Below are positions 2,495 to 44,300 of a stretch of DNA of 64,000 nucleotides, piece by piece. This DNA comes from Lepisosteus oculatus. Taxonomy: Eukaryota > Chordata > Actinopteri > Semionotiformes > Lepisosteidae. The position numbers were made by a program, and so were the translations under genes. The stretch's first letter is position 1. Each line of letters starts with the position of its first letter. The DNA is taken from positions 2,602,501 to 2,666,500 of the forward strand of contig NC_090698.1 of NCBI RefSeq assembly GCF_040954835.1, read 5' to 3'. Below the pieces are notes generated by a model. That model ran no database searches and had not been told where the DNA came from. It saw nothing but the letters and a program-made list of their open reading frames with translations.

Positions 2495-2746
2495 GGCACG
2501 AGGAGCTGATTGACCGGGTCCTGCTGTCCTCCATGCTGAACCCCAGCGAGCAGTGGCAGAGTTTCTGGCACCATGGCCGAGTCAGCCTGGAGTACAAGCT
2601 ACGCTTCCTCTGCGATGCCAACTACTACGGCCCCTTCTGCAACAAGTTCTGCCGCGCCAGGGACGACTTCTTCGGGCACTTCACCTGCGACGCCACCGGC
2701 AGCAAGGTGTGCATGGAGGGCTGGATGGGTCCTGAGTGCCGGCAAG
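2495..2746 (+). other. DSL-domain exon of the Jagged-like gene
   Basis: Exon of 252 nt (human JAG1 exon 4 is 255 by memory). It opens after a long polypyrimidine tract ending ctcag, in phase 1, and ends at aag|gtgagc. It encodes the end of the MNNL linker ([10 protein letters not shown]) and nearly the complete Delta/Serrate/LAG-2 module that contacts Notch EGF11-12. The conserved aromatic and glycine positions (YYGPFC, DDFFGHF, GWMGPEC) are all present, so receptor binding should be intact. Confidence 0.93.
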
Positions 2747-5700
2747 GTGAGCAGGGTGTGGGCGTGGCCGGCAGTTACAGGCGGGGCAGGGAGTGTGAGG
2801 TCGTGGGCGGGGGTGTGGGCGTGGCCAGTGGTCACAGGCCAGACTGGGAGTGGGAGGGAGTGAGCAGGGTGTGGGCGTGGCCAGTGGTCACAGGCCAGAC
2901 TGGGAGTGGGAGGGAGTGAGCAGGGTGTGGGCGTGGCCAGTGGTCACAGGCCAGACTGGGAGTGGGGGGGCTTGGGCGGGGGTGTGGGCGAGGCTGGTGG
3001 TCACAGGCCAGACAGGGAGTGGGAGGGAGTGGGCAGGGGTGTGGGCGTGGCTAGTGGTCACAGGCTGGACAGGGAGTGGGAGGGCGTGGGCGGGGGTGTG
3101 GGCGGGGGTGTGGGGCGTGGCTGGCGGTCACAGGCTGGACAGGGAGTGGGAGGGCGGGGGCGGGGGTGTGGGTGTGGCCGGCAGTTACAGGCGGGGCAGG
3201 GAGTGGGAGGGCGTGGGTGGGGGTGTGGGCGTGGCCAGTGGTCACGGGCCAGACTGGGAGTGGGAGGGAGTGAGCAGGGTGTGGGCGTGGCCAGTGGTCA
3301 CAGGCCAGACTGGGAGTGGGGGGGCGTGGGCGGGGGTGTGGGCGAGGCTGGTGGTCACAGGTTGGACAGGGAGTGGCAGGGCGTGGGCAGGGGTGTGGGC
3401 GTGGCTGGTGGTCACAGGCTGGACAGGGAGTGGCAGGGGTGTGCTGTACAGCAGGTGAACAGTAAGTGAAGGAGAATATGAAAGGCTCTTCAGAAGGGGA
3501 CAAACCAAACCTGCACCAGCATCACTGTGTCACCCATCACTGCACTGACCACTACAGCACAGACCTTAACACCACAGCCCCCTCACTACACTGACCACGA
3601 CAGCACAGACCTTAACACTTCAGCCCCCTCACTGCACTGACCACGACAGCACAGACCTTAACACTTCAGCCCCCTCACTGCACTGACCACGACAGCACAG
3701 ACCTTAACACTGCAGCCTCCTTACTGCACAGACCAGCAACAAAGTTATTTACTAGGTATTAGGGGGGCAATTATTACTTCTTCCAAAGTCTAGTGTTGCA
3801 TTGTTTGGAAATATAACCCAGATCGTAATTTTCAGTGTTTTGCTTGTTGTCGTCAGAGACAGTCTAATTCTGCGGTTTCTCTCTTTCTGTTCCAGCTGTC
3901 TGCAGGCAAGGCTGTCACCTGGCTCACGGGTACTGCAGCACCCCTGGGGAGTGCAAGTGAGTGCTTTATCAGCCTGATTGATTGATTGATTGATTGATTG
4001 CAACATACAAAGTAATGGCATTAGAATCAATGAGCAGCAGCCACTACTGCCCCCAGGAGAGCAGCGCGGGTTCGAGGCAGAGCAGAGCTGTGCAGCGGGG
4101 AAGGTGGGGGGGTCATGAAACGAGGTGGAGAGGAGGTCAGGGCGAGGAGTTCAGGGACCCCTGCCTTCTGCTGCGCTGGGGTTTGATGGTTTGGAGACAC
4201 AGGAGTAGCGAAGGAGAAGGGGCGAAGGAGAGCAGGCTGGGCCACCAGGCAGCGGCGCAGCCCGACCCCCCCGCCCCCGCGCCCAGACACTCTTCCTGAG
4301 CAGCCCGTGTCTCCATTCACTCCCTGCAACGGTCAGGCCGGGGGGAGCCGCGGGGCGACGAGAAGGCACGCTGGAGAAATAAATCATCGGGATAATTACC
4401 CTCGGAATGACTCGGGAATGTTTTTGTGGAAGGGGGATTCCACAGCTCCCGCCAGAGGCCTCTCTGCTGCTGGTGGCTTCCTGTGCCCTCCCCCTTGTCA
4501 AGGGTCTCTCTGCGGCTGGGAGACGGAGTGGGGTTGGCCCAGGGCCACGTAGCCAGAGGAGAGCGAGGGATTGGGAGAGAGGGAGGGACGGAGCGAGGGA
4601 TTGGGAGAGAGGGAGGGACGGAGTGAGGGATTGGGAGAGAGGGAGGGACACAGTGAGGGACACAGTGAGGGAAAGAGAGGGAGCGAGAGAGGGCTGGCGT
4701 GTGGGAGAAGAGAAAGAGAGGGAGAACCGGGGGAATAGTTGCTCCCCTCCCAAAGACTTGGGCTCCGTGCTGCCATGGCTCTCCAGAGGGCAAACAGGGC
4801 CCTACTGCCAGTTCCTCTGCAGCAGGAGATACCCACACCCAGTGAGAGCATCACTCTGCACCCTGCATGCCCACTTACAGGCGTCTAGAACTCTGGAGGT
4901 TCATTCCACCTGAGCTTTAAAATGACTTCATTCGGCCAATTACAATTTAATTAGCACACATTAACATGTATGTGATCACTGACTCTTTAACTGTCCTTGT
5001 AAAACCTGCAGGACCAAGGTAACTGACCCCTGACCTGCAGGGACTCTTTAAGCGGCGTGCTGCAGGACATCTGTGACAGTTTCCTGCTTTGAGAGTTAAA
5101 ATAGCTGTGAGGTCTGCTGGCCTGTGTTTGATGAATGGGATCCAGTGTCTAGCCAGCTGGTATTGGCCTCCCAAGATAAACAGGCCATCAGCTCTCTGTA
5201 GTTCTTCAAAGAACAGGTCATCTGGCCATTTCCTTAGTGCAGGGGACACAGAGTGAAGGCCTGTAAGTTAACTCATAACTATTGCACAGTGTCACAAAAC
5301 ATCCCTCTTGGGAAAGCTGGAGTGGACTGGTCTAAATAAAAGCTGGCTATGAGCACAAGCCCCTTTCCAGCAGACAAACCTCCACCAAAACAGTCTAACT
5401 GGGGCTTACGCTAAAAGCCTTTTTGTTGTATTAAATTTCTAACAGGGTTCTGGGAACAGCTGTGATTTTATTTAATAAAGAGCAGAGAACCCCCCCCCCC
5501 CACTAGCCTCTACAGGGAAATGGGGGTATTAGCCCATTTCCTCTGGCCTGCTCGCAGAGTCCTGCACACACTTTCCTCAGGCGACATTTCCCTCGCAATT
5601 TCAATGACCCCCAGCGCAGAGGCGCGAGTCCCCTGTACCCCCTCCACGGGCCCGGGGAGGGGGCTGAAACGTGCCGGCCGTGTGGGTGTTTCCGTGTTGA

Positions 5701-8700
5701 GTGGGAGGCGGCTCACGAAGGGTGAGCGCGCTGGAGTGCGCTCTGGCGTGTGTGCGTGCGCTGGTGCAGGCCGGCGGGGTGTGAACCGGAATGACGACGC
5801 TGGCTCACTCCCGCTCTCCCTCTCTCTCCCTCTCCCTCCCCGAGCCCAGGTGTCACTACGGCTGGGAGGGCCCGCTGTGCGACCGGTGCGTGACGTTCCC
5901 GGGCTGTGTCCACGGCAGCTGCACCGAGCCGTGGATGTGTGTGTGCGACACCAACTGGGGCGGCCTGCTGTGCGACAAAGGTGAGGGACGGGGGACCCCA
6001 CAGCACCCTGCACCCCGGCCGGTCAGCTGGCCCTGCCACCTCGGGGGGCTGCCCACACACATGCGCGTTGTCTTAGAGTGCGGCTTCTCGAGAGGCGCTG
6101 GCCCAAGGACCTTAGGAGCTCACACAGGAGGTGGATTTGTTGTTTGTCTAGATCTGCGGGGCAGTAGGGGAGAGTAGGGGCCACCCCGCTTCAGTCGGGC
6201 TTCCTCTCTTCCTCCCCCCTGCGTTTCTCCAGCGGCGACAGAGCTGGGGGTGCGCAGTTTCACTGGGCAGAGCGGCACCGTCAGCCCAGCCTGCTAACTC
6301 CTGCTCTTCTGCTCCTCAGACCTCAACTACTGTGGCACCCACCAGCCCTGCCAGAACGGGGGCACCTGTGCCAACACAGAGCCCAACGAGTACCAGTGCA
6401 TCTGCCGGGACGGCTTCCGGGGCAAGAACTGCGAGATCGGTGAGCAGCAGCCGGCGTTCACAAACAGTTCGGATTGTCTGTTGTGTGTCTGACAGTGAAT
6501 TCAGATTGGTGGGTTGATTGAGCCCTTTTTACCCAGAGGGTTGTTAATAAGCGCAGGACAGTAGATGAGAGGAGGTGCCACCCTGCTCCCTCACCAGGGT
6601 TGTGTCTGCCTTCTCTCTCTCACAGCAGACGAGCTCTTAGCTCTCACTGACACCAGCAGTGTCTCACACCTGCTGCACTCTTCTTCAGCCCGGTCACTCA
6701 CTGCTGACCCTCCGCAGACGGGAGAGCTAGTCTGCCCTGCGGCCAGCTCAGGACTGAATCCTGCTAGCCCTCTCCCGGGGAGGGCTTCGGGGTGCTCTTA
6801 CGCCACTCCCCCAGCTCACGCCCACTCACGGCCTCAGCTGTGCTTGCTGGAGCAACGCGTCACTCTCTTCTGCGAGTTGCGCCCCATACCGAACACACCC
6901 TGTGTGACACCACAATAGATGGTGAACACACAGCACACCTGGTGAATTCATACTGCACACAGTGCACACCTGGTGAATACACACTGCACACACTGCACAC
7001 AGTGCACACCTGGTGAATACACACTGCACACACCGCACACCTGGTGAATACACACTGCACAAACTGCACACCTGGTATATAGGTACTGCACACAGTGCAC
7101 ACTGGTGAATACACACTGCACACACTGCACGCCTGGTGAATACACACTGCACACACCGCACACCTGGTGAATACACACTGCACACACCACATACCTGGTA
7201 CATAGCTAAGTGCTCTGAGGATCTCAGTGACATTTTTCTTGAAAAACACCAATGCATCCTATTCACAGTCCTTCCTCATCACTTCCACTTGTGTCTGATG
7301 GCATTTCTTTTAAACCCAGGAAAATGCTGGCGACTCCTCCTCGGGTGGCAATGTCCTTTTCATAACACTATGACCAGTATTGCACACATTATCCCAAATC
7401 AAGAGTGCATTGCATACCTTTAACTTGTCACCCCCTCATTTAGCTAGAACTTAAGAAGCACCAGTAGGAGTACAGGAAAGTGTGACTGGTCATGTGTGTG
7501 TTTGCAGTGGAGCACGCGTGTCTGTCCAACCCCTGTGCCAATGGAGGGACCTGCGTAGAGGAGGCTGAGGGCTTCTACTGTGTGTGTCCCGAGGGCTGGA
7601 CTGGACCCAGCTGTACCACAGGTAACCCAGCCTGACCAGTGACCAGTGAACAGCTCCTGGAACTGTCGCAGCTATGTCTACTTGAAAGTGACTCTTCTTG
7701 TCAAACCATCAGGGTAAAAGCACAGTACGATGGAGTAACGTGCATTCAGATCATTGTAAAAGCACAATAAGATGCTGTAAAGTGCAGTCAGATCATAGTA
7801 AAAGCACAGTAAGATGCAGTAATTTGCAGTCGTATCATGGTAAAAGCCTAGTAAAGTGCAGTCATGTGCAGTCAGATTGTGGTGAAAGCCTACAGCACTC
7901 CCTCTCTGACGTGACCTCACCTAGAACACCTTTATTCTCACAAGACACCACATGTTGACTCTGGGACTAAGCCGGTTAAGTAATTGGCTTGTGAGCCTCG
8001 AATGGCTCAGATGAAATGTACGTATCTGGCAAGTGCCTTGAATGGACCAGACAGGTAATACCTTAACCGGATTACGAACCCTTTAAATAGTATCCGGGGC
8101 TGCTGCTCGACCCCGAGCTCCTTGATCTGTGAAAGAGGTTAGATCTGCATCCTGTTGCTTCACACCCCCCTCGCACCTGTCCCATTCCCTTGGCCACGCC
8201 CTCTTCCCCACCTGCCCTGCCCATTGGTCACGCCCTCTTTCTGCCTGTCCTGTCCATTGGCCACGCCTCCTCCCACCTGTACTGTCCCTTGGTCACACCC
8301 CTCCCAACTGTCCTTTCCCTGGGCCATGCCCTCTTACCCACGTGTCCTGTCCATTGGCCACGCCCCTTTACCCAACCTGTACTGCCCCTGGGCCATGCCC
8401 CTTTCCCACCTGTCCTGCCCCTTGGCCCCACCCCCTCCCACCTGTCCTGTGCTGTGCATTGCTCAGGGCTCTCTGCTCGCTGCTATGGTTCTAGTTGTGG
8501 CCATTTGGCTCTTCTAGCTTTGGTAGTCAGTAACTTATTGATCCTCGTGTCCCATGCAGGCTTTTCCTTGAAAGAAATTGATTTCAGCGACAGCAGCTCC
8601 CAAACTCCCAAATAACCTGCCACCTGTTCCATGTAGTTTCAAGGCTTTTCTGCAGTAGTGTGTCTTTTACACTGCATGAGTTCACAGTGGCTTGACCAGG

Positions 8701-11700
8701 CGCCTGTCTGTGGCTCCCTCTAGCTTCAGAGTGCACCATGACACCGGACACTCCTACAGTACATATTCCAGTGTACACTGTCACGAGGGCGGTGTGGATA
8801 ATGCAGGCTTTTCTGTGTGCAGTCAGCCTGCCCAGAGTGAAGAATACAGTCTCATAAAGTCCAGTGTCTTGGTTTGGCCTAAGAAAGCAGATGCCTGGGA
8901 CTGTGCCCACATGTTGTAGCAGGCCAGCCCGTGCAGCTAGTGCTGTCAAGAGAGGTGTCATTATTGCTGCGTATGAAAGGGTGATGTTTCAGTGAAGGGG
9001 GTGGTTTAACATGCGCTGAGCTGGATGAAGCTGGGGGCGTGGATCCAGGCAGGTAGGAACAGAACCCATTTTGGCTCTGCCACCCCGATCCCCCCCCCCC
9101 GCCCCCCCCGCCTTCTCACCGCCTCACAGGAGTGGGCCCTGGCGGGGGTGGGTCGCCGCCAGCCACGCCTCGACAGGAATGAGAACTGGCCCAGACAGAC
9201 AGAGAGCCCGCTGGAACTGGCTGATCTGTGCCGTCTGCGCCCAGCCCGTTCTCGGCACGCTGCGAGAGCAGGAGGGAGGGGTGTGAGCGAGCTGGTGCCG
9301 AGACCGGATATCCCCCCCTCCGGACCACGAGGCTGGGGCCGGCGAACTTGGAAATGAGTGACCGCCTAAAGCCTGTCTCTCCGCCCCTTCGCAGGCGTGA
9401 ACGAGTGCCAGCCCAATCTGTGCAGCCAGGGGGGGACGTGCCGGCAGCTCCAGCACGGGTTCGAGTGCCTTTGCCCACCGCAGTGGACCGGCAGAACGTG
9501 CCAGCTGGGTAAGCTGCGTGCCGACAGGCGTCAGAGCAAGGGCAGTGGTTCTGACCAGCAGGTGCTGCCCCCCTGCCTCTGAGGCCACAGCCTGACCCCA
9601 GCCTGACCCCAGCCTGGCCCCAGCCTGAGCCCAGAGAGCAGGATTCCAGCCCGGGCTCAAGACTGATAGAAATTGAATTGTTCAATTTTCTCTCAGTTCC
9701 TTGGCATTCATATCCGATTTTTTTGCACAAGAATCAGCGTCCCGTTCCGTACACCCCACAAAGCCAATTCAGGTGCTCCAGTCTACTCCGTGCTATGCCC
9801 TGGGTTTTGCTTCGGGTGTCCCTGTAGTTCTCATTTACTCAGTTACTCAAAGCAGTAGTGTTAGTCTTGGAGTCGAAACCGGCAGTACGAAGAAGTCCTG
9901 GTTATGGTTGCTTGTGATTTAGTTTAGAAGGGGCTTGTCACTGGTCTTGCCGATCGCTGCAGATTGAAAATAAATGAAGATATGCAGACTTGCATTTTGC
10001 AGCTCACAAAGTTGTAAACAGGGTGACACTCTTCGGATTAAAATGCCTTTTTGGTAACCGTGAGCACTGGCCCTTAGTATTCATGGCTTCAGGGTTTCAG
10101 CCTCATGTTTCTCTCTCCGGTCACAGGCAGGGCAAGAGCTAGGCGGGCGTGATATATCGCCCTCTCATCAGAGAGGAGCCTAAGAGTGCTTCTTCTTCGA
10201 TACACACGCAGGAGAGAGAGGGAATAAGAGATCAATTCTTCACCGTGATGGACACACGTGACATCGCAATTGAATCAATCACAGGCTTGGCTGCCCTCCA
10301 AGAGCACTGTCATGATGGAAATCCAATCCTGTACCTGTTCTTAATATATCCTTTACCGCAGTCAATACCCATCGATGTGACATTTGTGCCTTTGAGATTA
10401 GGTTTAATTAAGGAGATTGCCGTGATTCTGGAAGGGCTTCTGCAGAGATGAAAACAGTAAACAAAACATTGATTTTTTTTCATGTTTTTTTTTCTCTCCA
10501 TCTGTCCCAGACACTAACGAGTGTGACAGAGGGGTGTGTGTCCATGCTGTGGCGTGCCACAATCTGATCGGAGGATACTTCTGCGACTGTCAGCCAGGCT
10601 GGACCGGGCAGGACTGCGACATCAGTGAGTAGAGGGGAGTCGCCCCTCCAGGCACAGACAGGGCCATCGGGACAGGAGCACAGAGTGTCAGATCTGCAGC
10701 AGTCCTGGCCAGTGTTGCATCAGATCAGAGGCACTGATCAGCCCCTGTTCTTCCGAATGAGCAGTGGAACTGCGTGGAAGTGAATATAAAACCTAGAACA
10801 AAGTCCTTCTTTACTTTGAGGGGTGGCGGGAGTGTGAGACAAGTGTCTCGGATATGTTGTTGAAGCCGAAACCCTGACTTCTTAAAAGAATCAGCTGAAT
10901 AAGACTAACTACCGAACCACCCAGCCGGGTCGAATGGCTTCATCTCGACTGGGACCTGCCCTGTGTTCTTATCGCAGCTCTGACGCTGCCAGGCACATGG
11001 TGTGATAAGCAGCAGGTGTCCTGACTGGTGGACATTTCAGACAAGGCTTCCGCGTTGTCTTTGTGTCCTCTGTCCCAAAACAAGGGTTGTAGGGCTGGTT
11101 TGAAGGTTCCCTGGCCACCCGGTTGCAATTTACACTCTTCTGCTCAAAGACTGCATTGAGTTTTAAGCAGGTTTCAATGCCCGTGACTGACCAGGCCTGT
11201 GTCCACTCCCACAGTGCCTCTGTAAAACCTTGGGCAGCACCCTGGGGCCCTCTGATAGCCGGGCAAAATCCCCTGTGTTGCCAGAGAGTCAGCAGCTCTG
11301 TCCGTTTTTAAGTCCCAGCACTAGATCGTTTCTTTCTGACACTTTGTTTTGGTTCTGCAAAGAGCCTCCAGGTTTGCTATATTAATGCCAGCGTGTTGGC
11401 TGGTCTAGGCAAAATGTAAGGCGAGAAGTGAGCACCGCAGGGGGAAGGCGATAATTGGTGCACTTGTGAACAGGACAGTGAGTGCCTTGTCAGCTCCATC
11501 TGACCTTAGCGTGTGCCCGATACTTTGCCTTTATTATCTTCTGGAAACAGGGGGCGTCATCGCCCTCCGGTGGCCACCAGGTATGCCTGCGACTGGCGGT
11601 GTGGACTGCCGCTGGACACATTCCACATGGCACCTCTTGCACCTGCAGCAGATGTCATGGCTCTGGGGTGCACAGCCGTCGTGCGTTGAGCTGTGTTGCA

Positions 11701-14457
11701 CTGACACCTCTTGTGCTTCTTTTCCAGCCAACCACACCTGCCAGGGGAAGTGTCAGAATGGGGCCGTGTGTGAGGTAGGCCATTCTCCTCTGTTGTGCCA
11801 GCAAGGCTCGGGAACAGAAGGGATAAGATACCCACGTGTTGCTTTTTGTACTCTAGCCTTTCCAGATTGGTGAATGACGTGTGCTGTAGGAGTGAGCCAT
11901 CCTGCCTACAGTGGTAACAGAGGGCCTTGCCCCATGATTCCTGTTAACTGCAAAGTAGTATCAGTTCCTCATGGTGCCATGCAAGGAAAAAGAAGGGTGA
12001 TGCACATGACCTCATGTGATTGCTGCTACATCTGCCTTCTTTCTGCCACTGAAGGCGACAGCATACATGGCTAACTGTGAACGGAGACAGTATCAAGGGA
12101 CAGCAGACAAATCAGGCTGCAAGAAGCTGCTGAACTGTTGCTTTAATTGCCACTAGAAGTGCACGTACCTGCTGCTGGGGTAATTCTTGATATATGCCAC
12201 GGTAAGGCAGTGTATATGTGTATTGTACACAGGAACACAAGGGAAATCAGTATTTGGTAAAGCCAGCTCAGGACTGCACAAGTGTAAAAAAACACTTAAG
12301 TTATGGCTTAAAATCAAATTCACATGTTTCACTACAGATATGCTCCTTTCGTCTCTCCGGAGTGTTTTCCTGGAACTGGCTGTTTTCCCAGAACTGTTTC
12401 CTTGTTTCTGGAAGTTTGTTTCCTTGTGCAAGTTGAGCAGAAGAGTTGGAAGTGAGTCTGTCATAACCTCTTTTTCTTTCTTCCCAGGAGTCTCTGACAG
12501 GCTACAGGTGTCAGTGCCCTCCGGGCTTCACAGGGTCTTACTGCCAGACCAGGGCGAGCCACTGTGACAGTGCCCCCTGTCTGAATGGAGGACACTGTGC
12601 TGAGGAAGAGGAGACTCCGCAGTGCCACTGCCCCCTAGGCTACAGTGGGAAACACTGTGAGGTTTGTATGAAACTCCCAGTTTTCTCCATGGTTTTCCCA
12701 GTCTGTCTGAGATCCCTCAGAGCTCTAATCATCGTAAAAGTGCTGCTTCTCTGCTGAACAATGCAGTTAAACACTGATTTGACTGAGCACCCAGGGGTGC
12801 TCTGAAGTCTGGGTGGCAGTGGCTCTTAAGTCACTGTGTGTCACTGATCGTCTCGTAGGAAGTGCTGGACCTCTGCAATCCCAACCCATGCCAGCAGGGG
12901 GCGCCGTGTCAGAGCACGGAGGGTGGCTACCTGTGTGCCTGTCCCCAGGGCTACGAGGGGAAGGAGTGCTTGAGCCTGAAGGACACCTGCCATGAGCCTC
13001 ACTGCCAGGGAGAGCCTTCTGGGAGCACAGCAACGCACACAGGTACAGTTCCACAGACACACTTACAGACCCCTCACTTCTTCACAGACTGTAACCCTGT
13101 CCCCTCCTGTGATTATTGTGGAATGTGCAGGTCCTTTGTGTGTATTAGTTGTAGCACCTGTGAATCAGCCTTTGTATTAGTTGCCTGTGTGTTTTAATTG
13201 TGCTTGTTTGTATCAGCCTGTGTTTTAGCTGCTTGTGTGTTAATTATGTGTGTGTATCGCCTGTGTGTGTTGATTGTGCGTATCGGCCTGTGTGTGTTGA
13301 TTGTGTGTGCATCGGCCTGTGTGTGTTAGTTGTGTGTGTATCGCCTGTGTGTGTTAATAGTGTGTGTGTATCGGCCTGTGTGTGTTAGTTGTGTGTGTGT
13401 ATCACCTGTGTGCGTTAATTGTGTGTATATTGGCCTGTGGGTGTTGATTGTGCGTATCGGCCTGTGTGTGTTGATTGTGTGTGCATCGGCCTGCGTATGT
13501 TAGCTGTGTGTGTATCGCCTGTGTGTGTTGATTGTGCGTATCGGCCTGTGTGTGTTGATTGTGTGTGCATCGGCCTGCGTGTGTTAGCTGTGTGTGTATC
13601 GCCTGTGTGTGTTGATTGTGCGTATCGGCCTGTGTGTGTTGATTGTGTGTGCATCGGCCTGTGTGTGTTAGCTGTGTGTGTATCGCCTGTGTGTGTTAAT
13701 AGTGTGTGTGTATCGGCCTGTGTGTGTTAGTTGTGTGTGTGTATCACCTGTGTGCGTTAATTGTGTGTATATTGGCCTGTGTGTGTTGATTGTGTGTGCA
13801 TCGGCCTGCGTGTGTTAGCTGTGTGTGTATCGCCTGTGTGTGTTGATTGTGCGTATCGGCCTGTGTGTGTTGATTGTGTGTGCATCGGCCTGCGTGTGTT
13901 AGCTGTGTGTGTATCGCCTGTGTGTGTTAATAGTGTGTGTGTATCACCTGTGTGCGTTAATTGTGTGTATATTGGCCTGTGGGTGTTGGTTGTGTGTATC
14001 GGCCTGTGTGGGTGTCACCTCTGTCTCTGTGTGGGAGTCTGGCTGTGGGCACCGGGGGTTGTGTGTGCCTGTGCCTGACGGTGCTCTCTGCGCCTCTGCC
14101 GTGCCAGGCTCCGGGAGCACTCTGTACGTGGTGATGGTCGTCCTGCTGGCCATGTTGGTAGTGGGAACGACGCTGTGCATCTACCTGCTGGCTCAGCTCC
14201 GGAGGCGCAGGAAGGAGCGCCAGCACGCCGGGCAGGACGAGGGCATCAATAACCAGCGGGAGTGCGTCACCCTCATCCGGAACCTGGGCGGCCCTCCCCC
14301 AGTGCCCCGCTGTCGTGAGGAGATTGAGCTGAGCCTGCCGCCCACCCCAGAAACCAAGAAGCCCAGGAGGAGCAGCGCCAAGCTCGACATCTCCAACCGG
14401 GAGCGCGAGAAACTCAACCGCTTCCACTTCTCCGACAGCCAGGAGGTGGAAGTGTGA
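2495..14457 (+). CDS. Jagged/Serrate-type Notch ligand, short form, 5' exons outside the window
   Basis: Membrane-bound ligand that would activate Notch on a neighbouring cell. Exons: 2495-2746, 3896-3956, 5850-5980, 6320-6439, 7508-7621, 9395-9508, 10511-10624, 11728-11774, 12488-12661, 12859-13042, 14108-14457. All have GT/AG borders and one continuous frame of 552 residues plus stop. Order: DSL domain ([18 protein letters not shown]), EGF1-9 ([11 protein letters not shown] in EGF3), the first two cysteines of EGF10, a short Ser/Thr linker, a transmembrane helix, the basic stop RRRRKER and a tail ending EVEV, a possible PDZ ligand. Exon lengths 61/131/120/114/114/114/47/174 are those of Jagged rather than Delta. 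The tail keeps the Jagged features RRKER, NNQ and IRN. JAG1/JAG2 have 16 EGFs plus a cysteine-rich region; here EGF10-16 and that region are absent. EGF sequence is closest to JAG2 by memory. Signal peptide and MNNL exons must lie upstream. The family is certain, the orthology is not. Confidence 0.9.
2747..3447 (+). repeat. 56-bp G-rich minisatellite starting at the DSL exon splice donor
   Basis: About 12 imperfect copies of a 56-bp unit (gcagggtgtgggcgtggcc ... cagactgggagtgggaggga). Two adjacent copies at 2850-2905 and 2906-2961 are nearly identical. The first unit abuts the exon, and its beginning (gtgagcagggtgtgggcg) is the donor sequence itself, so some later units repeat a gtgagc donor-like site. 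The long open frames through it are an effect of the repeat period and GC content, not genes. Confidence 0.93.
3543..3735 (+). repeat. 46-bp minisatellite in the intron after the DSL exon
   Basis: Four tandem copies of a 46-bp unit containing cactgaccacgacagcaca and ccttaacacttcagccccct. Copies two to four are nearly identical, the first more diverged. It ends about 160 bases before the 61-nt exon. Confidence 0.9.
3957..5849 (+). other. Intron with a GA-rich 30-bp tandem repeat
   Basis: A 1.9-kb intron between the 61-nt and 131-nt exons. A (gatt)n run lies at 3977-4000. About 4558-4680 carries a purine-rich 30-bp tandem repeat (gagcgagggattgggagaga plus gggagggacg) of about four units. Open frames of 170-200 aa on both strands across 4150-4910 follow this composition and are rejected as genes. 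A non-repetitive stretch at about 4370-4460 carries taattacc and two ggaatg (TEAD-like) words. A short C-run is at 5491-5502. Confidence 0.7.
6915..7205 (+). repeat. CA-rich minisatellite in the intron after EGF3
   Basis: Tandem imperfect units of the form cacacctggtgaatacacac followed by tgcacacac(tg/cg), with variable spacing of about 30-47 bases. It lies between the exons ending at 6439 and starting at 7508. Cysteine- and valine-rich minus-strand frames across it are repeat shadows. Confidence 0.88.
7714..7881 (+). repeat. 42-bp tandem repeat, four copies
   Basis: Four consecutive 42-bp units beginning gtaaaagcac and containing gtgcagtcagatcat, just downstream of the EGF4 exon. The units differ from each other by several substitutions, so the array is not recent. 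Confidence 0.9.
8172..8452 (+). repeat. Pyrimidine-rich minisatellite of about 36 bp
   Basis: About eight imperfect units of the form ccattggccacgccctctt followed by cccacctgtcctgt. The CCAAT-like word inside each unit (ccattgg) is a property of the repeat, not evidence of a promoter. Confidence 0.88.
8453..9394 (+). other. Intron between the EGF4 and EGF5 exons, distal part
   Basis: Non-repetitive intron. A C-run lies at about 9090-9110. No exon is visible; the next real exon opens at 9395 after ccttcgcag. Downstream of that exon, about 9584-9640, is a short tandem repeat of the 11-mer agcctgacccc. Confidence 0.6.
9509..10510 (+). other. Intron between the EGF5 and EGF6 exons
   Basis: One kilobase with no coding exon recognised. 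A 100-codon open frame at 10149-10451 lies in AT-balanced, non-repetitive DNA just upstream of the EGF6 exon. Its translation resembles no family I know, and I do not call it a gene. Confidence 0.55.
10625..11727 (+). other. Intron between the EGF6 and 47-nt exons
   Basis: No exon, RNA gene or clear repeat recognised. The acceptor cttttccag at 11719-11727 opens the 47-nt exon, the shortest and one of the most diagnostic Jagged exons. Confidence 0.6.
11775..12487 (+). other. Intron between the two EGF7 exons
   Basis: 713 bases separate the 47-nt and 174-nt exons that together encode EGF7. No feature is recognised within it. The acceptor is ttcttcccag. Confidence 0.6.
13195..14015 (+). repeat. 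GT-rich minisatellite with an 84-bp higher-order unit at the Jagged truncation point
   Basis: The array is built from related 26-33 bp monomers (tgtgtgcatcggcctgcgtg, tgtgtgttgattgtgcgtat). A higher-order period of 84 bp is seen directly: the word gattgtgcgtatcgg recurs at 13446, 13530 and 13614. It fills about 80 percent of the 1.06-kb intron between the EGF9/10 exon and the transmembrane exon, where a full-length Jagged gene would carry about a dozen exons. Open frames within it are repeat translations. Confidence 0.95.
14108..14457 (+). other. Terminal coding exon: transmembrane helix and cytoplasmic tail of the Jagged-like gene
   Basis: The acceptor gtgccag opens the exon in phase 1. The first residues GSGSTLYVV lead directly into a hydrophobic run of about 22 residues ([20 protein letters not shown]), then LRRRRKERQ. 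The tail is about 85 residues, shorter than in JAG1 and JAG2 (about 125 by memory), and lysines are present for Mindbomb/Neuralized-type ubiquitination. It ends SQEVEV-stop, a hydrophobic-x-hydrophobic C-terminus that may bind PDZ proteins. The stop TGA is at 14455-14457. Confidence 0.9.
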
Positions 14458-14874: not shown

Positions 14875-14880
14875 AATAAA
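14875..14880 (+). terminator. Proximal poly(A) signal AATAAA of the Jagged-like gene
   Basis: Canonical AATAAA in gaagaataaagtattg, followed 10-35 bases later by a T/GT-rich downstream element (gttgttttttttttgtttg), the usual arrangement of a vertebrate cleavage site. Confidence 0.75.
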
Positions 14881-19309: not shown

Positions 19310-20435
19310 CCGTTCACCCTTTCCTCCACTTCCGCTCTCATTGCTCTTTGACCTCGGAAGTGGTTGCCGGGATACCGGAGGACTGTGTGTTGTGATGGCC
19401 TCCCGATCGGAGTTCGGGTGCAGTTACGGCTGTTCGACGTGTTTATATATTTAATTGCACTCTGTAAATCTTACACCAAAGAATATCCGGTGGTAAAAAT
19501 CGAAAGACCCGAAATATCTTACAGACAAGCATAACCAAAATCCTTTCAAGGAACATAGACGTTGGAGGAAGAAGACTACATTTCGTACGTGTGCAGGCGC
19601 CATTGGGATCCGGGGTCGCAGCTGTTATTTATTCCACAAAAACAGATAAACAGTTGGGGAATTGTAATATTTATCGCCGCATTCCTTAAATTACTTCTGT
19701 TCGAAGTGAGTAAATGTTATTAGGGCAAGAATTCGAAGCAGGCGTTTCTAATCATGCCATTTTTAAGCAAAAGCAGTAGATGAGATTGCATATCAGGGAG
19801 GGACAGGAGCGATTAGGAGAGTCCCTTGCGCGGGGGCTGTGTTGGATGTGTCGCTGCTTCGTTCGTGTGTTTTGCCAGGGATTAGACGGGAACCCCCATG
19901 AGAAGGGAGAGAGGCGAGCAGTATGAGGAGTGTCGCGGACACATTCCTCCGGGTGCGGCCGCCATTGTAGGCAGCTGTATTCCCCAGGGGAAACCGCTCA
20001 GCCCCCGAGAAGCCGTGAGCAAGGCTGAGCGGGCGGCTGGAGAGCGGTGAAGAGCAAGCAGCCCTTAAAAAGTGATAGCGGTCACATGGGCAGCCACCAG
20101 CTCCGCCCTGCTACAACCTTTTAAGGAACCGGTAAACTCTTATTGCCGGAAGCCTACATTTGTGAGAACAGGAGGTTGATTTCAGGACCTGGACAAGGCC
20201 CTGTGGCTCCTGGGCCGAGGGCAGATGAATACCCCCTGCTCCCGGCCAGCTGTCTTGCAGTGGCCCCAGGGGCAGAGCCCAGAACACCTTGGCCCTCAGC
20301 AGACTGTGCCTCCTTTTCACCCCCAGCATCCTTTCTCCCTGTGCAGGTGTGTTGTGGGATTCCTGCTGCCCTCGGACTGCCTCTCCGGCTCCTCCCGTCT
20401 CCACGGCAGCAGGGCTTGGCCGCCCCGGCGCCAGG
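19310..20435 (+). promoter_or_regulatory. clasrp: Promoter and 5' untranslated region of clasrp
   Basis: A TATA-less, moderately CpG-rich stretch. ETS-type words (cacttccgctc near 19328, cggaagtgg near 19356) and YY1-type words (gcgccattg at 19598, ggccgccattgt at 19956) fit a housekeeping promoter. The transcription start cannot be fixed from sequence. A 5' UTR intron is likely: a possible acceptor (ctccctgtgcag) ends at 20346, upstream of the ATG at 20436. Confidence 0.5.
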
Positions 20436-20958
20436 ATGTGGCACGAAGCCCGCAAGCATGAGCGCAAGCTGCGCGGCATGATGGTGGATTACAAGCGGCG
20501 GGCGGAGCGGCGGCGCGAGTACTACGAGAAAATCGTGAGCGAGCCGTCGGCGTGCCCGAGGAGCGGGGCCTTGGCCCGCGGCCCCCAGGAGCCGCCCTGT
20601 GGGCGGCCAGCTGCCCCTGCCCGGTCGCGGCTGGCGCTCGCCCTGCCCCTGCCCGAGGCGCTGGTGTTTTCCACCTGGTCTTCTCAGGGGCTTTCATTCA
20701 GAAAACAACCAGACAAATGTTTGATTAAGCAACATGTTGGGTAGTTTATGCAGAACAGGGATAGATTGATGATAAATGATTAATTAACCACATGGGAGTG
20801 ATGTAATCTGACTCGTCTGAAGGCACTGGCGGGGGTGCAGTAATGCCCGGCAGGTAGTACTGTTGTACACTTAGCTTGGTGGTGGTGGAGGGGATCCCCA
20901 TTACCTGTAAAGCGCTTTGAGTGGAGTGTCCAGAAAAAGCGCTATATAAGTGTGAGCA

Positions 20959-21000
<42 letters not shown>

Positions 21001-24000
21001 GGGAACATTACTGTGTAAAAAAAAAATGGATTTCAGGAACATTCAAAAGCAGGAACTTTTTTTCCCTTAAGCCCCTAGTTTCCACTTGTCCCTTGGGGAG
21101 TTGTTTGGCAGTGTTATACTCTACTGTGAGAGTTACCGGAGTCTTGTGATTTCAGAAAAAGGACCCGGCCCAGTTCCTGCAGGTCCATGGGAGAGCGTAC
21201 AAGATCCACTTGGACTCTGCTGTGGCTCTGGCTGCCGAGAGTCCAGTGAACATGTGAGTACTTCTCTGCTCCTGTTTGCCTTAGGCCACAATAGTTCCCT
21301 GTAGCCACACTAACACTACAGGATCACAGGGACAGCACTGTACCATACAGACACTGTGCAGGGTCAGAGGGAGAGCACTGTACCATACAGACACTGTGCA
21401 GGGTCAGAGGGAGAGCACTGTACCATACAGACACTGTGCAGGGTCAGAGGGAGAGCACTGTACCATACAGACACTGTGCAGGGTCAGAGGGAGAGCACTG
21501 TACCATACAGACACTGTGCAGGGTCAGAGGGAGAGCACTGTACCATACAGACACTGTGCAGGGTCAGAGGGAGAGCACTGTACCATACAGACACTGTGCA
21601 GGGTCAGAGGGAGAGCACTGTACCATACAGACACTGTGCAGGGTCAGAGGGAGAGCACTGTACCATACAGACACTGTGCAGGGTCAGAGGGAGAGCACTG
21701 TGCCGTGCAGACACTGCAGGGTCAGAGGGAGAGCACTGTACCATACAGACACTGTGCAGGGTCAGAGGGAGAGCACTGTACCATACAGACACTGTGCAGG
21801 GTCAGAGGGAGAGCAATGTGCCGTGCAGGCACTGTGCAGGGTCAGAGGGAGAGCACTGTACCATACAGACACTGTGCAGAGTCAGAGGGAGAGCACTGTA
21901 CCATACAGACACTGTGCAGAGTCAGAGGGAGAGCACTTTACCGTGCAGACACTGGACAGGGTCAGAGGGAGAGCACTGTACCGTACAGACACTGGGCAGG
22001 GTCAGAGGTAGAGCACTACCGTGCAGACACTGGGCAGGGTCACAGAGACAGCACTGTACCACACAGACTTTGTTTAAGATCACAGGGACGGCACAGACCA
22101 CAGCAGAAACTAAGCCTCTAACACATGGTTCGTCTCCACATATCCATAACTGAACCAAATTTGTACATTTTCACTTAATGTGTGTATCCTCACTTTCTGA
22201 ACAATTAACAGATATCTGTGGTCCATGATACAGAAAAATGGGCACATTTGTAGTGGTAAGATAATAATTGCTTCTTTCTTCCTGGCAGGATGCCTTGGCA
22301 AGGGGATGCCAACAACATGATTGACAGGTTTGACGTGCGAGCCCACCTGGACTACATTCCCACCTACACCCCTCCGCTCCTCAGCACAGTGTAAGTACTG
22401 GCACGGCCACCAGGGGGCGCCCTGAGACCTTTTGTTTTTCCTTATGGTCCTTGTAGGACAGTGAGGGCCTGTTCCCTATCCTCCAGGCTCTGACTGTGCC
22501 CTGTGCTTTTCCAGAACGCCGGAGCAGGAGTCAGACGAGAGGAAGTGCAACTATGAGCGATACAGGGGACTGGTGCAGAACGACTTTGCCAACAGTGAGT
22601 GAAGAAATATATCTTACGTTCCTTTGCCAAAGAAGGCAGCCCAGCTGTTTCTGTGTTCTGTTCCATAGTAGCGGCTATCCATGTGTCCACTGTAGGAAAC
22701 CTTCTCAGGATCATGGTGAGGGTGTAGCTGAGATCACATGGCTATTTATCAAGGCTGGTAAAGGGTTTATGGAGCAATAGATGTGTCCCAGGTTGTAACA
22801 AACACTGCCTCTGACCCAGATGCGGCCCCAGAACACTGAGATAAGATGCTTTATGAGAGTTCATTAGGGGGAAAGGAACGACCTTTTGTGTGCAACACAA
22901 GAAGGAAAGCTGGTTAACTTCAGTCGTATCAGTATGAAACGTTAAGGGTAAGGCTTAGTGACGCACAGCAGGCAGAGGCTGGTGGTTTCCACTGTCCAGT
23001 CCTGGCCGCGGCCAGAATTATTCTACACCCTGTACCGGTGACTGAGTCTCCTGCTTGGCCTTGTCTTTTCCCGCAGTCTCGGAGGAGCAGTGCCTGTACC
23101 AGATCTACGTGGACGAGCTATACGGGGGCCTGCAGAAGCCCAACGAGGAGGAGAAGAAGAAGTGAGTGGCGCTGCCCGGGGGGCCCTGGGTGCTGTGCTG
23201 CTGACAGATCTTTCCAGCTGGGGAGGGGGTTGCTGGAGACGACCGCTGCATCTTCAGTGTCTGCCTCCAGCTCAGCTCTCGGGCGCTGCAGCGAGGCTCA
23301 AAGCCACCCCAGTCATGCTGAGGAACCCAGGGTCTTTCTCTCTTGGCCACTGAAGCCAAGAGCAGAGGGTTCCCAGCTGTACCATTGAAGCCTGTACCCT
23401 GGCTTCTCTCAAGACGCGGTTTCAGTTGATCCCTGGATCAGTTACCTGCTGACTAGCCCATGTCCCAGTGCGCACTCTTGCAGTCTTGCACTCTTCATAT
23501 GCACGTTCCTGCTCAGGTCTGCAAGGGCTCGGGGTTTTATAAAAACAAATTTTTATGAGACTACTTTAGATTCAACTGTATGAATTCTTGGTACAAAGTT
23601 TTGACATAAAGCTTTTATTTGGTTGCCTGATTTGGACCGATGAATATTAGTTTGTCTGTGGTGTATTTTGTACTCTGAATATTTAATAGTACGCGTTTTT
23701 AAAGGTACAAAGCTCTTAGGTATTGCCAAGTTTACCTTATTTAGTTTACTTTGAATGAACACCTCCCCCCCCCCCCCAGGCTGGCTGAGAAGAAGGCCAC
23801 TATCGGCTACACGTATGAGGACAGCACTGTGACGGAGGGCGAGGGCCTGTCTGACCGGGGAGAGGACGAGGACTCCGAGAACAGCGACACCGACGAGGAT
23901 GGGGTCATCCCTGACATCGGTGTGTGAATCCGGCTGGTCGGGCGACTTGCGTGTGGTTCCCGAGTCGAGTCGCTGACTTGCTTTTCCCGCTGGTTGTTCT

Positions 24001-27000
24001 GAGGGGCTGAGCTGGAGGAGAGTGATCGGTTGAGCTCAGATCCGTGTTTCTTAGCCAGCAGCTGCTCGGTTCAGTTCGGAGTCTTTGTTTCTTCAGTGTC
24101 TTCTTTTGGCTTTGGTCAAGATCTGTTTGAATCCTTTAAATTGGGGTTCCCTACTTCAGATCCCAGAGAGTCCTCAGGTAGACCTTTGGGCTTCTAAGAT
24201 TGAATTGCCTCAGTTAACATTCTCTACAGATCTCGAGAGTTGTAGAGAGATCTGGAGAATCTGCTTGACTTCCAGCCCTGTTCCACCTCATTGGCAACCC
24301 CTGCGGTATTTGCAGTATTTCCTTGATACAGTGTCTCTGCCCGTGGCTGCTCCAGTCCTGGAGCAAGGACAGGAGGTTAAGGGCGTGGCTGCAGGACTCG
24401 GGAGGTGCAGGTGTTCACGGGTGTGTACTTGTTCCAGATGTGGAGGTGGACGTGGACGAGCTGAATCAGGAGCAGGTGCTGGAGCTGAACAAGCTGGCCA
24501 CGCCCTATGGCATGGCAGAGGGAGACTTTGTCAGGTCAGTGTTCCCTGTGCTGCCATCTGCTGGTGGGGTGTTGTCACAGCTGTTAGTGGCCTAGGTATT
24601 TTGAATTGAATTGAGTAAAGCTTTTGTGTTCTAGACCTTCTGCCTCCCATTATCCCGGCACCTCTGAAGCGTCTAGAGTCCCATGTGTGAGACATTCCTT
24701 TTGCCTTTTCTCCCCAGGATGCTGAGGAAGGACAAGGAAGAGGCAGAAGCCATCAAACATGCCAAAGCTTTGGAGGAAGAGAAGGCCATGTACTCGGTAG
24801 GAGCAATCCACTTCCGGGATTCAGGGGCCACCCCCTGACACGGGGCTCCCCAGCACACTCACACTCTCCTGAAAAGCCTCAGAGATTACAGACTTGAAGG
24901 ATGTCATGCAAACTAATCTCCTGGAAGATGACAGGATGACCGCTTGCCGCGGGCTGCCACGTGATCCAGCAGGCAGGGACACCTGTCGGTATCCACACAG
25001 CGACCGGATAAGAGCGTTCTGTTGCCGGAGAGAGACGTTGACGGTTTTCTGTATTCTGTGTTGCCTACTCCTGCGCCTTCACCCGCCTGGTGCTCTTGCA
25101 GTTGGGGTGCAGAGTGGCCCCAGAGCGCTCTTTCCCTCGCTGTGCGATCACGAGGAGGCGGGTGCGCGTGCGTAGCTCCCAGCTGACGATGCATCTCGTC
25201 CTGGCAGGGCCGGCGCTCCCGGAGGCAGCGGAGGGAGTTCAGAGAGAAGAGGCTGAAGGGCAGGCAGATCAGCCCACCCAGGTAGCTACACCCCGGCACC
25301 AAGCTCTCACACCCAGAAATCGGGAGTCTGTATCCTGTAGCATGCCAACCCCAGGGAGTAGAAAGCAGGATGTGGCCGGGTCCCAGGAGGACCTGGACGA
25401 GCCATGGCTCGGTCTTGTCCTGTTCTTGCAGCAGGGCGGCGTCCCCTGCAGGTGGCTGTGAAGACCCGTCCCTGCGGTTTGTAATAGGGCTGGGGTCCGG
25501 GGATTGTTCTGGGCTTGGAAGTTGGCGGTAGTCTCTGCCTTGCTGATAAAATTTTGACTGGGAGTTCTGCATATTAGTGCATATACTAAAGACACAGATG
25601 AATAAAGGAACAAGTAATAGGTTTATTCCATGCTGAAAAGAGAAGAAAGCAAGCATGCCTCGCATCTGAAGAAGGCTCCACGGCCGAAACGTTGTGTTTT
25701 CTTTCTTCTCTTTTCACCATGGAATAAACCTCTCACTTGTTCCTTTGCAGCCTGCGCATGCTGACGCAGCTCCCCACCTGAACTACAGATGAATAAATAT
25801 TTGATTGCTGATGCTGAACGCAGAATTACAAGATGGTGTTAATCCGACATTCAAGTCTTGCTTTGTGGGGGACTATTGATTGTGTTCCTTCGGGTGCTCG
25901 GGGGAGTCTGGTTTATGTGTCGTTTGTCCAGATGATCACTGCTGGGTCTGTTGGTTGTGAACCCCTGCTGATGGATGGGGGAAGAACCCATGCCTTTTCT
26001 CTGACAGATGACTGCAGCAGTGTCTTTCATGGAGTTATTTCACCTGAGAAGATTACTTTCTGAACCTGCGGCACTGAATCTTTCATTTCACGCGGCATTT
26101 AATAATTCTCCTCGTGGTGTTGATGCCAGTTCATGTCCGGGATAGTTCCCATGTCTTCCTTTGCTGCTTGGGCGCCATGGAGGAGACGGGTGCACTCTGG
26201 CGCGCTCTCCTCCCTCCCTCTGCAACCTTTCCATTCCAGTGTCGCAGATCAGTCTGTCTTTCTGTGCGCTGTGTGGTCGGGCAGAATTCTCAGGTCCTAA
26301 GAACCACGCTCCTCTGTCGACGTAGGGCGAAGAGCTCAGACGCTGACTCGACAGGAATCGCAGGTGCCTGAAGGAAAGAAGGATGCGTTTAGCTAACGAG
26401 AGGGCGGCCAGCAGTGCCGCCAGGTAAAAAGAGCTGCATTAGGGGTACAGCTCAGCTAACAGGCAGCCATGCCGTTTTTTTCCTCTTTACTCATGTGGTG
26501 TCTAAATCGGGTTTTTCCTTTTTCGATTTCAGCTATGCCAGGAGAGACAGCCCCACCTACGACCCCTACAAACGGTGAGCAGGCCCGGGTTCTGGGTGAG
26601 GGTGGGGGGGGTTGTGCACTGGCGGAAAGGGGGTGAAGGAGCATGAACTGCTGTAGACGAGTAGAGAACACAGAGGCGCTTGTGTGGTGGGTGTTCTCTG
26701 CCCGCGCGGTGGGAGGTGTGGAGGCTCTGACCCTCTGACCTCTGACCCCTGACCCCGCTCTCCGCCCGCAGGTCCCAGATGGAGTCGAGCTCGGAGTCGC
26801 GGTCCCGCTCCCGCTCCCACAGCCCCGGGCAGGAGAAGATCACCTTCATCACCAGCTTCGGGGGCAGCGACGAGGAGGGCACAGGCCCCGCCAGCGCGCC
26901 TGGCCGCGCGCCTGCAGCCTCCAAGCACCACGCCGCCCCCCCCGCCCCTCCCGCTACATCAGGTCATAGCAGCTCTTCCCGGTCGGTAGCTTTCCCGTTT

Positions 27001-41300: not shown

Positions 41301-44300
41301 TGCTTGACCATCAGTGAGACATGGACCAGAGGGCACAAGTAGAAAACCGCAGAGCAGTGATATAAAAGCGAGAACCGGTGGCACTTCTTTACATGAAGGG
41401 TGGTGGGAGTGTGGAACAGGCTGCCTAGTTGATATCCTGGCTTCTTTCTAAGAAGCCGCTGGATGAGGTCCTGGGAGCAGCGAACTGGCACACAGGCCAG
41501 ATGTGCTGAACGGCTCCTCTTGTACGTGACCGGCCTTGAGTTCGTTCGGCAGGGGGAATGCTGGCGCTGAGGGGAATTTCGGTTTATTCACTGTGGTCTT
41601 GTGTTTAATGTTTTCGTGAGAACCTGAAAGGGGAAGACCAGACCTCTGAAGAGTAAAAAGCCAGAACAAAGAGGGGTGGCTGTTGATTCCGTGGCGCCTT
41701 TGTGCAACACCAGCCAAAACCGGATAATTCACAACCAGGTCCGGGACGAACCGGAGACGGTCACGGGGTCACGGGGTCACGGGGTGGGGGGGCTTGACCC
41801 CAGGGGTGCAGCCCTGGCACAGTCCTGCGGGTTACAGGGTGCACACTCTGGGCCAGGCAGCCCGGAGAAGCCAAACCTGTTTTCAGGCGGCGAGGAAGCA
41901 GAGGGCCGTGTTTACTGACAACAGGGAGGGAGGATCGGCATGCCGGGTCTCGCAGGACTGCGCGGAGGGGAGGGGGGGGGGGGCAGGACTGAGCGCGTCT
42001 GTGTGTCTGTGAGACAGTCGTCCCGCCTCCCCTCCTCCCCTCCTCCCCTCCCGCTTCGGAGCCAGCATGGCCGTCAGGTGCACGAGAGCAAAGGGAGAGA
42101 GCCTGGGCTTTTTCAGACTGCCTCCGCGGCGGGACAGCGGTGTCCAGTGCCGCCCGGGTCTGTGGTCCTGTGACCTCTGGCTCGGCAGCGCATGTCCGGG
42201 CAGCCTTCCTCGTCCAAGACCAGCGCGCTACTGGAGCGCCGAGAGGCTTCTCGCAGACGGAGACGCGCGCCTGTGGGTGGCCGGCGCTGTCCTGGAGCGT
42301 GGGGCAGAGGTCAGGGAGGTGTCCGGACCGGGGCGGGTTTGTTGTTCGTCAGGACTCTGCTTGCTGATGCTTCTTTGCGAGCTGTAGTGATCCTGCCTCG
42401 CCTCGGGAGGGCGCCGCAGAGTCCCGTGGGCACTAGGTGGGGGGGGTGCGGGGAGGAGCCCTATGTGGAGGCCCAGCCAGGGCCCCTGCCAGCGCGATCG
42501 GTGAGCCCGCCTGGTGTGGGCGCGGGAGGGCGAAGGAGGCTGCACGACGTCGTTTTCAGCTCGGCCTCACTCCGGATGTTTCCGTCCTTGTCCGCAGACG
42601 AGCCGGAGCCTGGCGATGTCGCCGATTCCGTGTCGGAGAAAGCTGCCGGCCTGGACGTGGGAGACCGGGATCTCCTGACCTGCGGGCAGTGCCGGAGCAC
42701 TTTCCCCCTGGCACACATCCTGCTCTTCATCCAGCACAAGAGAGGGCGCTGCGGGGGCGGGACCTGCCTCGGGGAGGAGGAGCTCCAGGCACACGGCCCG
42801 CCTTCCCCACCCAGGAGAACTCTGATGCGGGCCCCCTATCTGGCCAATGGGGTGCTGGAGGCGGTGCCACTGGATCTGTTTGGTGGAGGGATTTATAGGC
42901 AGGCCAACGGACCAATGGTGAAGCAGGAAGCTCTGGGACTAGGTGAGTAAGAGGGAGAGGTCATATTTCTCACAGTTGTCGATTGCTCTACTTCGTATTT
43001 CTTCATTAGGAATTTTTGCTATGTTTTGGGTGACTCATGAACCTAGGTGACCTTTAAACCTTTGAAAACAACTATCAAGATCCACTTTCAGAAACCGTCA
43101 GCGCTGCAGCGGTAAACAGTGCTTCTATAATAAACTCTCAGCGCTGTGAAGTGACACCTGCCCCCTCTGTCCTCACTGTCACATATTGCTGACCTTTCTT
43201 TCATTCAATTTGATTTTATTTTTATAACCCCAGAAAGAGGAACCACGAGGAGGAAGGATTTGTCTGCTGCCGCTCAGAGGGTTTGATTTGAACTCTCTGA
43301 AGGAAGCGGGCCTGATTCGGGTCATGGCCGAGAAATCTCTGAGCTGCGCTGCGTTTCCTTCCTCCTTTCAGAGCCCCCTGCTCGCGCCAGAGCCCGCCCG
43401 GCCCAGCCGATTTCAAGTCCGGGATCCGTGCGGATCTTCGGAACCGTGGAACCGGGCCGGCCCACCGGTGCCACCTCGGAGCCCCTCGCCCCCGCTCCAC
43501 GATCGAACGGTTAAAAGGCCTAAACCGACAGCGGCCCCTCTCCCAGCGCCTGGGCCTGCGCGGGCGGCGCCCGTGTCAGCTGTGCTTGCGGTAACTGGAT
43601 CTGTCCCCAGGGCAGGCGAGCGAGCAGCTACCTGTCCCTAATTAAATTCGCCAGCCCAGGCCCGTCATCAGGGAGGGCCGCAGGGATCGGCGCCGGTAAT
43701 GACCCTGGGAATGACCTCCCGGCTGTCGGCCACGAGGAGTGCAGGCAGGCTGGAGATCCTCGCCCCCTCCTCCTCCTCCTCCTCTTCACAGACATGCTGC
43801 CCCTCTGCCCCCCTGCCCCCAGCAGCAGGATGGCGAAGCACAGTCAGTCCTCTCCCTTCCTCCCTCTCTCCCCTGGGGCGCCCGAGTGAAACCTGGTGGG
43901 GTAATTATAGCCCGAGGGGAAGTCCGCAGCGCCGAGCCACACAGGGGACGACACCTGCTGTCACGGTCCTCGCGCGGCGCTACAGGGGGGGCGCTATAAT
44001 TAACCCACCCCCCCACGGCCGCTGGCTCTGTGGCCTTCGCTGCACAGGGGGGTCCAGGGCCTGGGCCGCCGCGTGGCAACACCCCCAAAACTTTAGGGTC
44101 TCATGGGGAGTAGGGGCGATCCGCTTTTTGGACCTGAAACGGAGACGCGGCCGGAGAGGGGATCGAAGGGTGCCCGCGTGCGGACAGCGGAACTGAGTGC
44201 CGGGGTCCTTCCCCCTGTTAAGTCGTCTGCGGGGGCTCAGCCCCCCTGACGACCTGCCCCCCGAGTCCTGGGCGAGTAGCTCGTTCTGCACCCCGCGCCC

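Follow-up and report, generated by a model that had tools for sequence, protein, structure and literature searches.

A 64,000-nucleotide stretch of the genome of the gar Lepisosteus oculatus (assembly GCF_040954835.1, contig NC_090698.1, here C3, positions 2,602,501 to 2,666,500; hereafter the window) harbors a gene that likely represents a third vertebrate Jagged paralogue, which has lost EGF11-16 and the cysteine-rich region while keeping the receptor-binding head and an N-box-like motif in the tail; we give this reading a probability of about 0.7. Eleven exons on the plus strand at window positions 2495-14457 join into a single open frame that encodes 552 residues and closes with a stop codon (Table 1), and their product comprises the DSL domain, nine complete EGF repeats, two cysteines of EGF10, a Ser/Thr-rich linker, one membrane helix, an RRRRK stretch and a tail. 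The gene extends upstream beyond the window, where an MNNL exon lies at C3:2581432-2581737 and a 58-nt phase-consistent piece at C3:2600671, reading KSFSLVLEVLDHDNDTVGA, is likely exon 3.

Jagged affiliation of the gene

The product gives Pfam matches above cut-off to MNNL, DSL and EGF, and its best single stretches against solved structures score 290.7 bits for JAG2, 289.2 for JAG1 and 235.9 for DLL1. In two trees of six rows each, the gene falls on the Jagged side (support 100/100 in both) and outside the JAG1 pair (98/99), and a Delta identity was rejected on this placement. From DSL to EGF3, identity amounts to 61% with the gar's own jag1, 62% with JAG1 (4cbz) and 63% with JAG2 (5mw7), and to 51% with both DLL1 (4xbm) and the Delta gene on the same contig (C3 Delta, described below). 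The sizes of exons 5-12 (61, 131, 120, 114, 114, 114, 47 and 174 nt) are identical to those of the gar's own jag1, in which exons 5, 8 and 11 had two possible boundaries and the frame-keeping one was chosen, yielding 425 jag1 residues without a stop. A previous reading of the sequence alone (the earlier note) had ascribed a Jagged DSL and a Jagged exon pattern to this gene, and both the trees and the exon sizes bear it out.

From DSL to half-EGF10, all 62 cysteines (6 in DSL, 54 in the nine EGFs and 2 in half-EGF10) are shared with the gar's own jag1, while 243 of 424 aligned columns are identical, which is more conservation of cysteines than expected by chance. This pattern bears on the alternative that the gene was broken by a deletion and is decaying toward loss, being apparently absent in humans. 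The large exon loss would fit such a fate, as would the mouse/human row of the table in the available part of PMC10859470, which gives Jag1 and Jag2 only. However, the splice sites are present, the 552 codons are free of stops and frameshifts, and no cysteine has been lost although 181 of the 424 columns differ, making decay improbable.

In the available portions of PMC2770060, a vWC/cysteine-rich region serves to name Jagged proteins, and their EGF repeats, like those of Serrate, range from 12 to 18. Pfam, local and genome searches found no such region in the third Jagged, and its stalk consists of nine complete EGFs plus the first two cysteines of EGF10. Since it has neither the region nor at least 12 EGFs, it is classed as a variant of the Jagged lineage rather than a standard member. 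A short EGF stalk without vWC is a Delta-like trait, which is here a likeness of build and not of descent.

The exon 13 junction and the missing exons

Exon 13 is read in phase 0 and ends at a GT donor in phase 1, and the acceptor at 14108 is likewise in phase 1, with the membrane helix beginning about four residues after the join. This agrees with the earlier note, which had placed the start of the next in-frame coding exon four residues ahead of the helix and had read EGF9, two EGF10 cysteines and a Ser/Thr-rich linker at 12859-13042, all of which are seen in the translation. The note had also contrasted the 184 nt of this exon with 151 nt in Jagged genes, the very length measured for the counterpart in the gar's own jag1. 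When the two exons are aligned, jag1 ends in ..TTPCE opposite ..EPHCQ, and the third Jagged continues for 33 nt more; at the 151-nt position the GT is missing, bases 13010-13011 being GA. Both observations fit the suggestion of the note that the donor may have moved 33 bases into the old intron.

In the gar's own jag1, exon 14 and further EGF exons follow the 151-nt exon 13, and exons for vWC and the cysteine-rich region precede the last exon. All three Jagged genes have a phase-1 last exon whose start coincides with that of the helix or lies slightly ahead of it, so that loss of the intervening exons preserves the frame. JAG1 has 26 exons, from which the numbering 14-25 derives. Exons 14-25, encoding the rest of EGF10, EGF11-16, vWC and the cysteine-rich region, would thus have been lost as one block without disturbing the phase; exon 13 would have gained 33 nt.

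The missing exons were sought in the last intron, nearby and elsewhere in the genome. Six-frame translation of the intron (13043-14107), inspected by eye, contains no EGF-like or vWC-like stretch and is mostly minisatellite, so the additional exons between 13042 and 14108 that the earlier note had raised against itself were not seen there. With jag1 exon peptides as queries over 214 kb around the gene (about 100 kb on each side), the best three matches per peptide were considered. For all eight peptides with a counterpart (exons 4, 6-10, 12 and 13), the best local match was the counterpart exon. For the nine missing-exon peptides (14-18, 20, 21, vWC and cysteine-rich), no new EGF exon appeared among the best three matches of each; the EGF peptides matched EGFs already counted, the one exception being a stretch of 31 residues at 75030 (E 0.064). 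The vWC peptide had no match in the region, and the sole match of the cysteine-rich peptide there was an EGF at 12506. A genome-wide search of 813 contigs with the jag1 cysteine-rich exon matched in two places, jag1 itself and jag2, with 42% identity and E 2.1e-8 for jag2. As the jag2 exon was detected at this identity, a similarly diverged third copy should have shown. The 12 Pfam families listed with E of 0.1 or below for a query of two exon translations joined by 11 X do not include vWC. A genome-wide Pfam vWC search gave 39 matches, all of them outside C3 2.3-2.7 Mb, and is uninformative, since the vWC of jag1 itself likewise escaped it. Presence of the missing exons was therefore rejected for the last intron (by eye, in six frames), for the vicinity (nine peptides, 214 kb) and for the rest of the genome (cysteine-rich exon only), and the local and genome-wide searches agree with the proposal of the earlier note that the gene lost the exons separating EGF10 from the membrane exon.

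These searches also bear on two further alternatives. The 777-bp minisatellite within the last intron makes it conceivable that the missing exons collapsed in the assembly or lie on another contig, a concern already voiced in the earlier note. However, the cysteine-rich exon has no third copy in the 813 contigs although that of jag2 was detected, many unique exons would need to vanish together, and no GT stands at the 151-nt donor position, all of which render misassembly very improbable. Phase-neutral skipping could likewise yield a short splice form of a full-length third Jagged, yet no counterpart of the nine skipped-exon peptides turned up in the roughly 100 kb on each side and the cysteine-rich exon matches only jag1 and jag2, leaving this the remotest of the alternatives. 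Other arrays occur in the gene as well, with a second minisatellite at window 2754-3438 (57-bp unit, 11.8 copies) directly past the donor of the DSL exon and further arrays in other introns (6926-7199 and 8187-8449).

Table 1. Coding exons (Jagged numbering) and other features of the third Jagged gene, in window positions
Feature	Position	Strand	Details
Coding exon 4, end of C2/MNNL region and DSL	2495..2746	+	252 nt; DSL family match C3:2605111-2605245; 55% identity to own jag1 exon 4 over 80 aa
Coding exon 5, start of EGF1	3896..3956	+	61 nt; jag1 exon 61 nt with frame-keeping donor
Coding exon 6, EGF1-EGF2	5850..5980	+	131 nt; jag1 131 nt; 67% identity
Coding exon 7, EGF3	6320..6439	+	120 nt; jag1 120 nt; 72% identity
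Coding exon 8, EGF4	7508..7621	+	114 nt; size equal in jag1
Coding exon 9, EGF5	9395..9508	+	114 nt; size equal in jag1
Coding exon 10, EGF6	10511..10624	+	114 nt; size equal in jag1
Coding exon 11, start of EGF7	11728..11774	+	47 nt; size equal in jag1
Coding exon 12, rest of EGF7 and EGF8	12488..12661	+	174 nt; size equal in jag1
Coding exon 13, EGF9, two EGF10 cysteines and 33 extra nt (Ser/Thr-rich linker)	12859..13042	+	184 nt vs 151 in jag1; phase-1 donor
Minisatellite, most of last intron	13234..14010	+	84-bp unit, 9.0 copies, 777 bp
Last coding exon: membrane helix, RRRRK stop-transfer, cytoplasmic tail with N-box-like motif, C-terminus EVEV, stop	14108..14457	+	phase 1
AATAAA polyadenylation-type signal	14875..14880	+	about 420 bases downstream of stop

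Cytoplasmic tail and predicted signalling

In the tail, the segment ERQHAGQ to LIRN can be aligned with ERCHMSA..NNQWEPLNPIRN of jag2, a score reached by 1 of 1000 shuffles once the basic run is removed; with the basic run included, none of 1000 shuffles reaches the score for either jag1 or jag2. For the compared part of the C3 Delta tail, 821 and 686 of 1000 shuffles do so. In addition, the sole match of the jag1 last-exon peptide in the 214 kb lies at 14116 (34% over 59 aa, E 0.014). NN and IxN are both present as an N-box-like NN..IxN motif, and five lysines occur from RRRRK onward. The asparagine of LIRN, which is that of IxN, presumably corresponds to N1124 of JAG1, by count along the human tail. 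In the available text of PMC11887331, MIB1 binding depends critically on the N-box asparagine N1124 of human JAG1, and zebrafish DeltaD is enhanced by a di-asparagine motif. The EVEV end (14443-14457) has a hydrophobic-x-hydrophobic form like EYIV of the gar's own jag1. Delta proteins end in ATEV, which EVEV does not resemble; by PDZ motif classes, EVEV could be a PDZ ligand.

On these parts, the product would be a membrane-anchored ligand composed of C2 (MNNL), DSL, nine full EGFs, two EGF10 cysteines, a short Ser/Thr linker, a helix and a short tail. If the gene is expressed, the retained C2-DSL-EGF3 head would most likely bind Notch on a neighbouring cell and the NN..IxN motif recruit Mindbomb, whereupon endocytosis would pull on Notch and trans-activate it as other Jagged proteins do, from a stalk of Delta length and without a contribution of the cysteine-rich region.

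The same gene could instead yield mainly a cis-inhibitor or a weak ligand, should the short stalk and the lost cysteine-rich region impair presentation. The part lost is the membrane-proximal stalk, the tail is short and divergent, and Drosophila Delta with a weak Mindbomb interaction shows less signalling and more cis-inhibition, according to the available text of PMC11887331. However, the head and the NN..IxN motif are retained and the tail has its five lysines, and such a role appears unlikely, though it ranks first among the rivals to an activating third Jagged, ahead of decay and then misassembly. Delta ligands, moreover, signal from short stalks. Their stalks are comparably short, averaging 7-8 EGFs in deuterostome Delta in the part of PMC2770060 that was available.

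Genomic neighbourhood, origin and known ligands

Genome-wide, MNNL and DSL each matched at six places, corresponding to three Jagged and three Delta genes, and the trees assign one of each to C3, C8 and C17, with jag1 on C17 and jag2 on C8. Such a distribution is expected if an ancestral linked Jagged-Delta pair was duplicated with whole genomes. This arrangement, with jag1 and jag2 each in single copy, speaks against a teleost genome. By similarity, we take the C17 Delta to be dll1-like and the C8 Delta to be dll4-like. Three places outside this set (C17:17665675, C8:11573995 and C7:24440213) also exceed the cut-off of a JAG1-like EGF2 model and are probably other EGF genes.

The C3 Delta (C3:2346163-2353838) lies 258 kb from the third Jagged and has an intact, canonical DSL. 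It adjoins a NIF-domain exon, which in our judgment reads like TIMM50, and TIMM50 adjoins DLL3 in human. This Delta in the DLL3 position, with its canonical DSL, suggests that DLL3 descends from an ordinary Delta. Its tail reads ..CIFATE ahead of a likely splice donor; an ending in ATEV was considered and dropped, as ATE runs into the donor-like GTAAGG.

By best match, the neighbours of the third Jagged include ITPKC and SNRPA, and Pfam families identify a cyclin, a CiPC-family gene, a BCL11A-type CCHC finger gene with C2H2 fingers and a calpain nearby. Downstream of the Jagged gene, CLASRP-like exons and the BCL11A-type CCHC and C2H2 zinc-finger gene occupy window 20394-26931 and 42621-49381; we presume the zinc-finger gene to be ZNF296-like, and nearby exons seem to us to read like CLASRP and FOSB. 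Most of these neighbours would map to human 19q13 in a like arrangement, and no Jagged is known to us from there. The C3 neighbours, taken with the human map, suggest a third Jagged that arose in the early vertebrate genome duplications. The gene is probably a Jagged copy from those duplications, on the chromosome with the DLL3-position Delta and beside retained jag1 and jag2. If so, the ancestor may have had three Jagged-Delta pairs, of which the human lineage would have lost one Jagged. In the available parts of PMC10859470 (Table 1) and PMC10277265 (guide tree, five species), vertebrates are given Jag1 and Jag2, duplicated in zebrafish. Within the accessible text retrieved by a literature search on jag3/jagged3-type names, no third vertebrate paralogue is named, which is no proof of its absence in print.

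A number of observations weigh against this interpretation. When scores against solved structures are summed, DLL1 comes first with 344.4 bits from three stretches, ahead of JAG2. One tree gives no resolved placement relative to jag2, and the other groups jag1 with jag2 to the exclusion of the third Jagged (83/90). Among 500 label shuffles of the six-row trees, 47 to 66 cluster equally well, and with only six rows the trees therefore rest on branch support. The two EGF10 cysteines are without their usual partners, exon 1 was not located, and exons 19, 24 and 25 of the missing block (in our own numbering) were left out of the query set. The CLASRP-like and FOSB-like pieces have no supporting Pfam family. 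The tail gave neither a Pfam match above cut-off nor a Jagged match among solved structures; against jag1, with the basic run removed, 100 of 1000 shuffles reach the same score, and when the jag1 tail served as query against the whole genome, only jag1 and jag2 were listed and the third Jagged exon was absent. Homology of the tail accordingly rests on position, phase, the weak local match and the shuffle test. The Jagged tail claimed in the earlier note is thus clear against jag2 but loses significance against jag1 when the basic run is left out, and it is the weakest part of the reading.

A short natural Jagged would make testable what the cysteine-rich region and the distal EGFs contribute to force transmission, cis-inhibition and receptor choice. 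More speculatively, the third Jagged, paired with the DLL3-position Delta, might constitute a Jagged head on a Delta-length stalk, a natural experiment indicating that Jagged receptor choice needs neither EGF11-16 nor the cysteine-rich region, and the two leftover EGF10 cysteines near the membrane might link two ligands into a covalent pair whose members pull jointly on Notch.

Among known ligands, the third Jagged resembles JAG1 and JAG2 in MNNL, DSL, EGF1-9, exon sizes, the phase-1 last exon and NN..IxN in the tail, but differs in ending at two EGF10 cysteines, in lacking EGF11-16, vWC and the cysteine-rich region, and in the 33 nt added to exon 13. Its last exon encodes 115 residues ending in EVEV, whereas that of the gar's own jag1 encodes 152 residues ending in MEYIV. 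With DLL1 and DLL4 it shares a stalk of eight or nine EGFs from DSL to the membrane and the absence of vWC, yet it differs from them in its Jagged exon sizes and in a DSL-EGF3 region that is 61-63% identical to the Jagged rows versus 51% to DLL1 and C3 Delta; its tail is likewise nearer to Jagged than to the compared part of the C3 Delta tail. Branchiostoma Jagged genes described in the available part of PMC2770060 are similar in being Jagged by tree with no vWC found. For those genes, however, the same text allows for prediction or assembly error or secondary loss, whereas here the whole genome was searched for the cysteine-rich exon.

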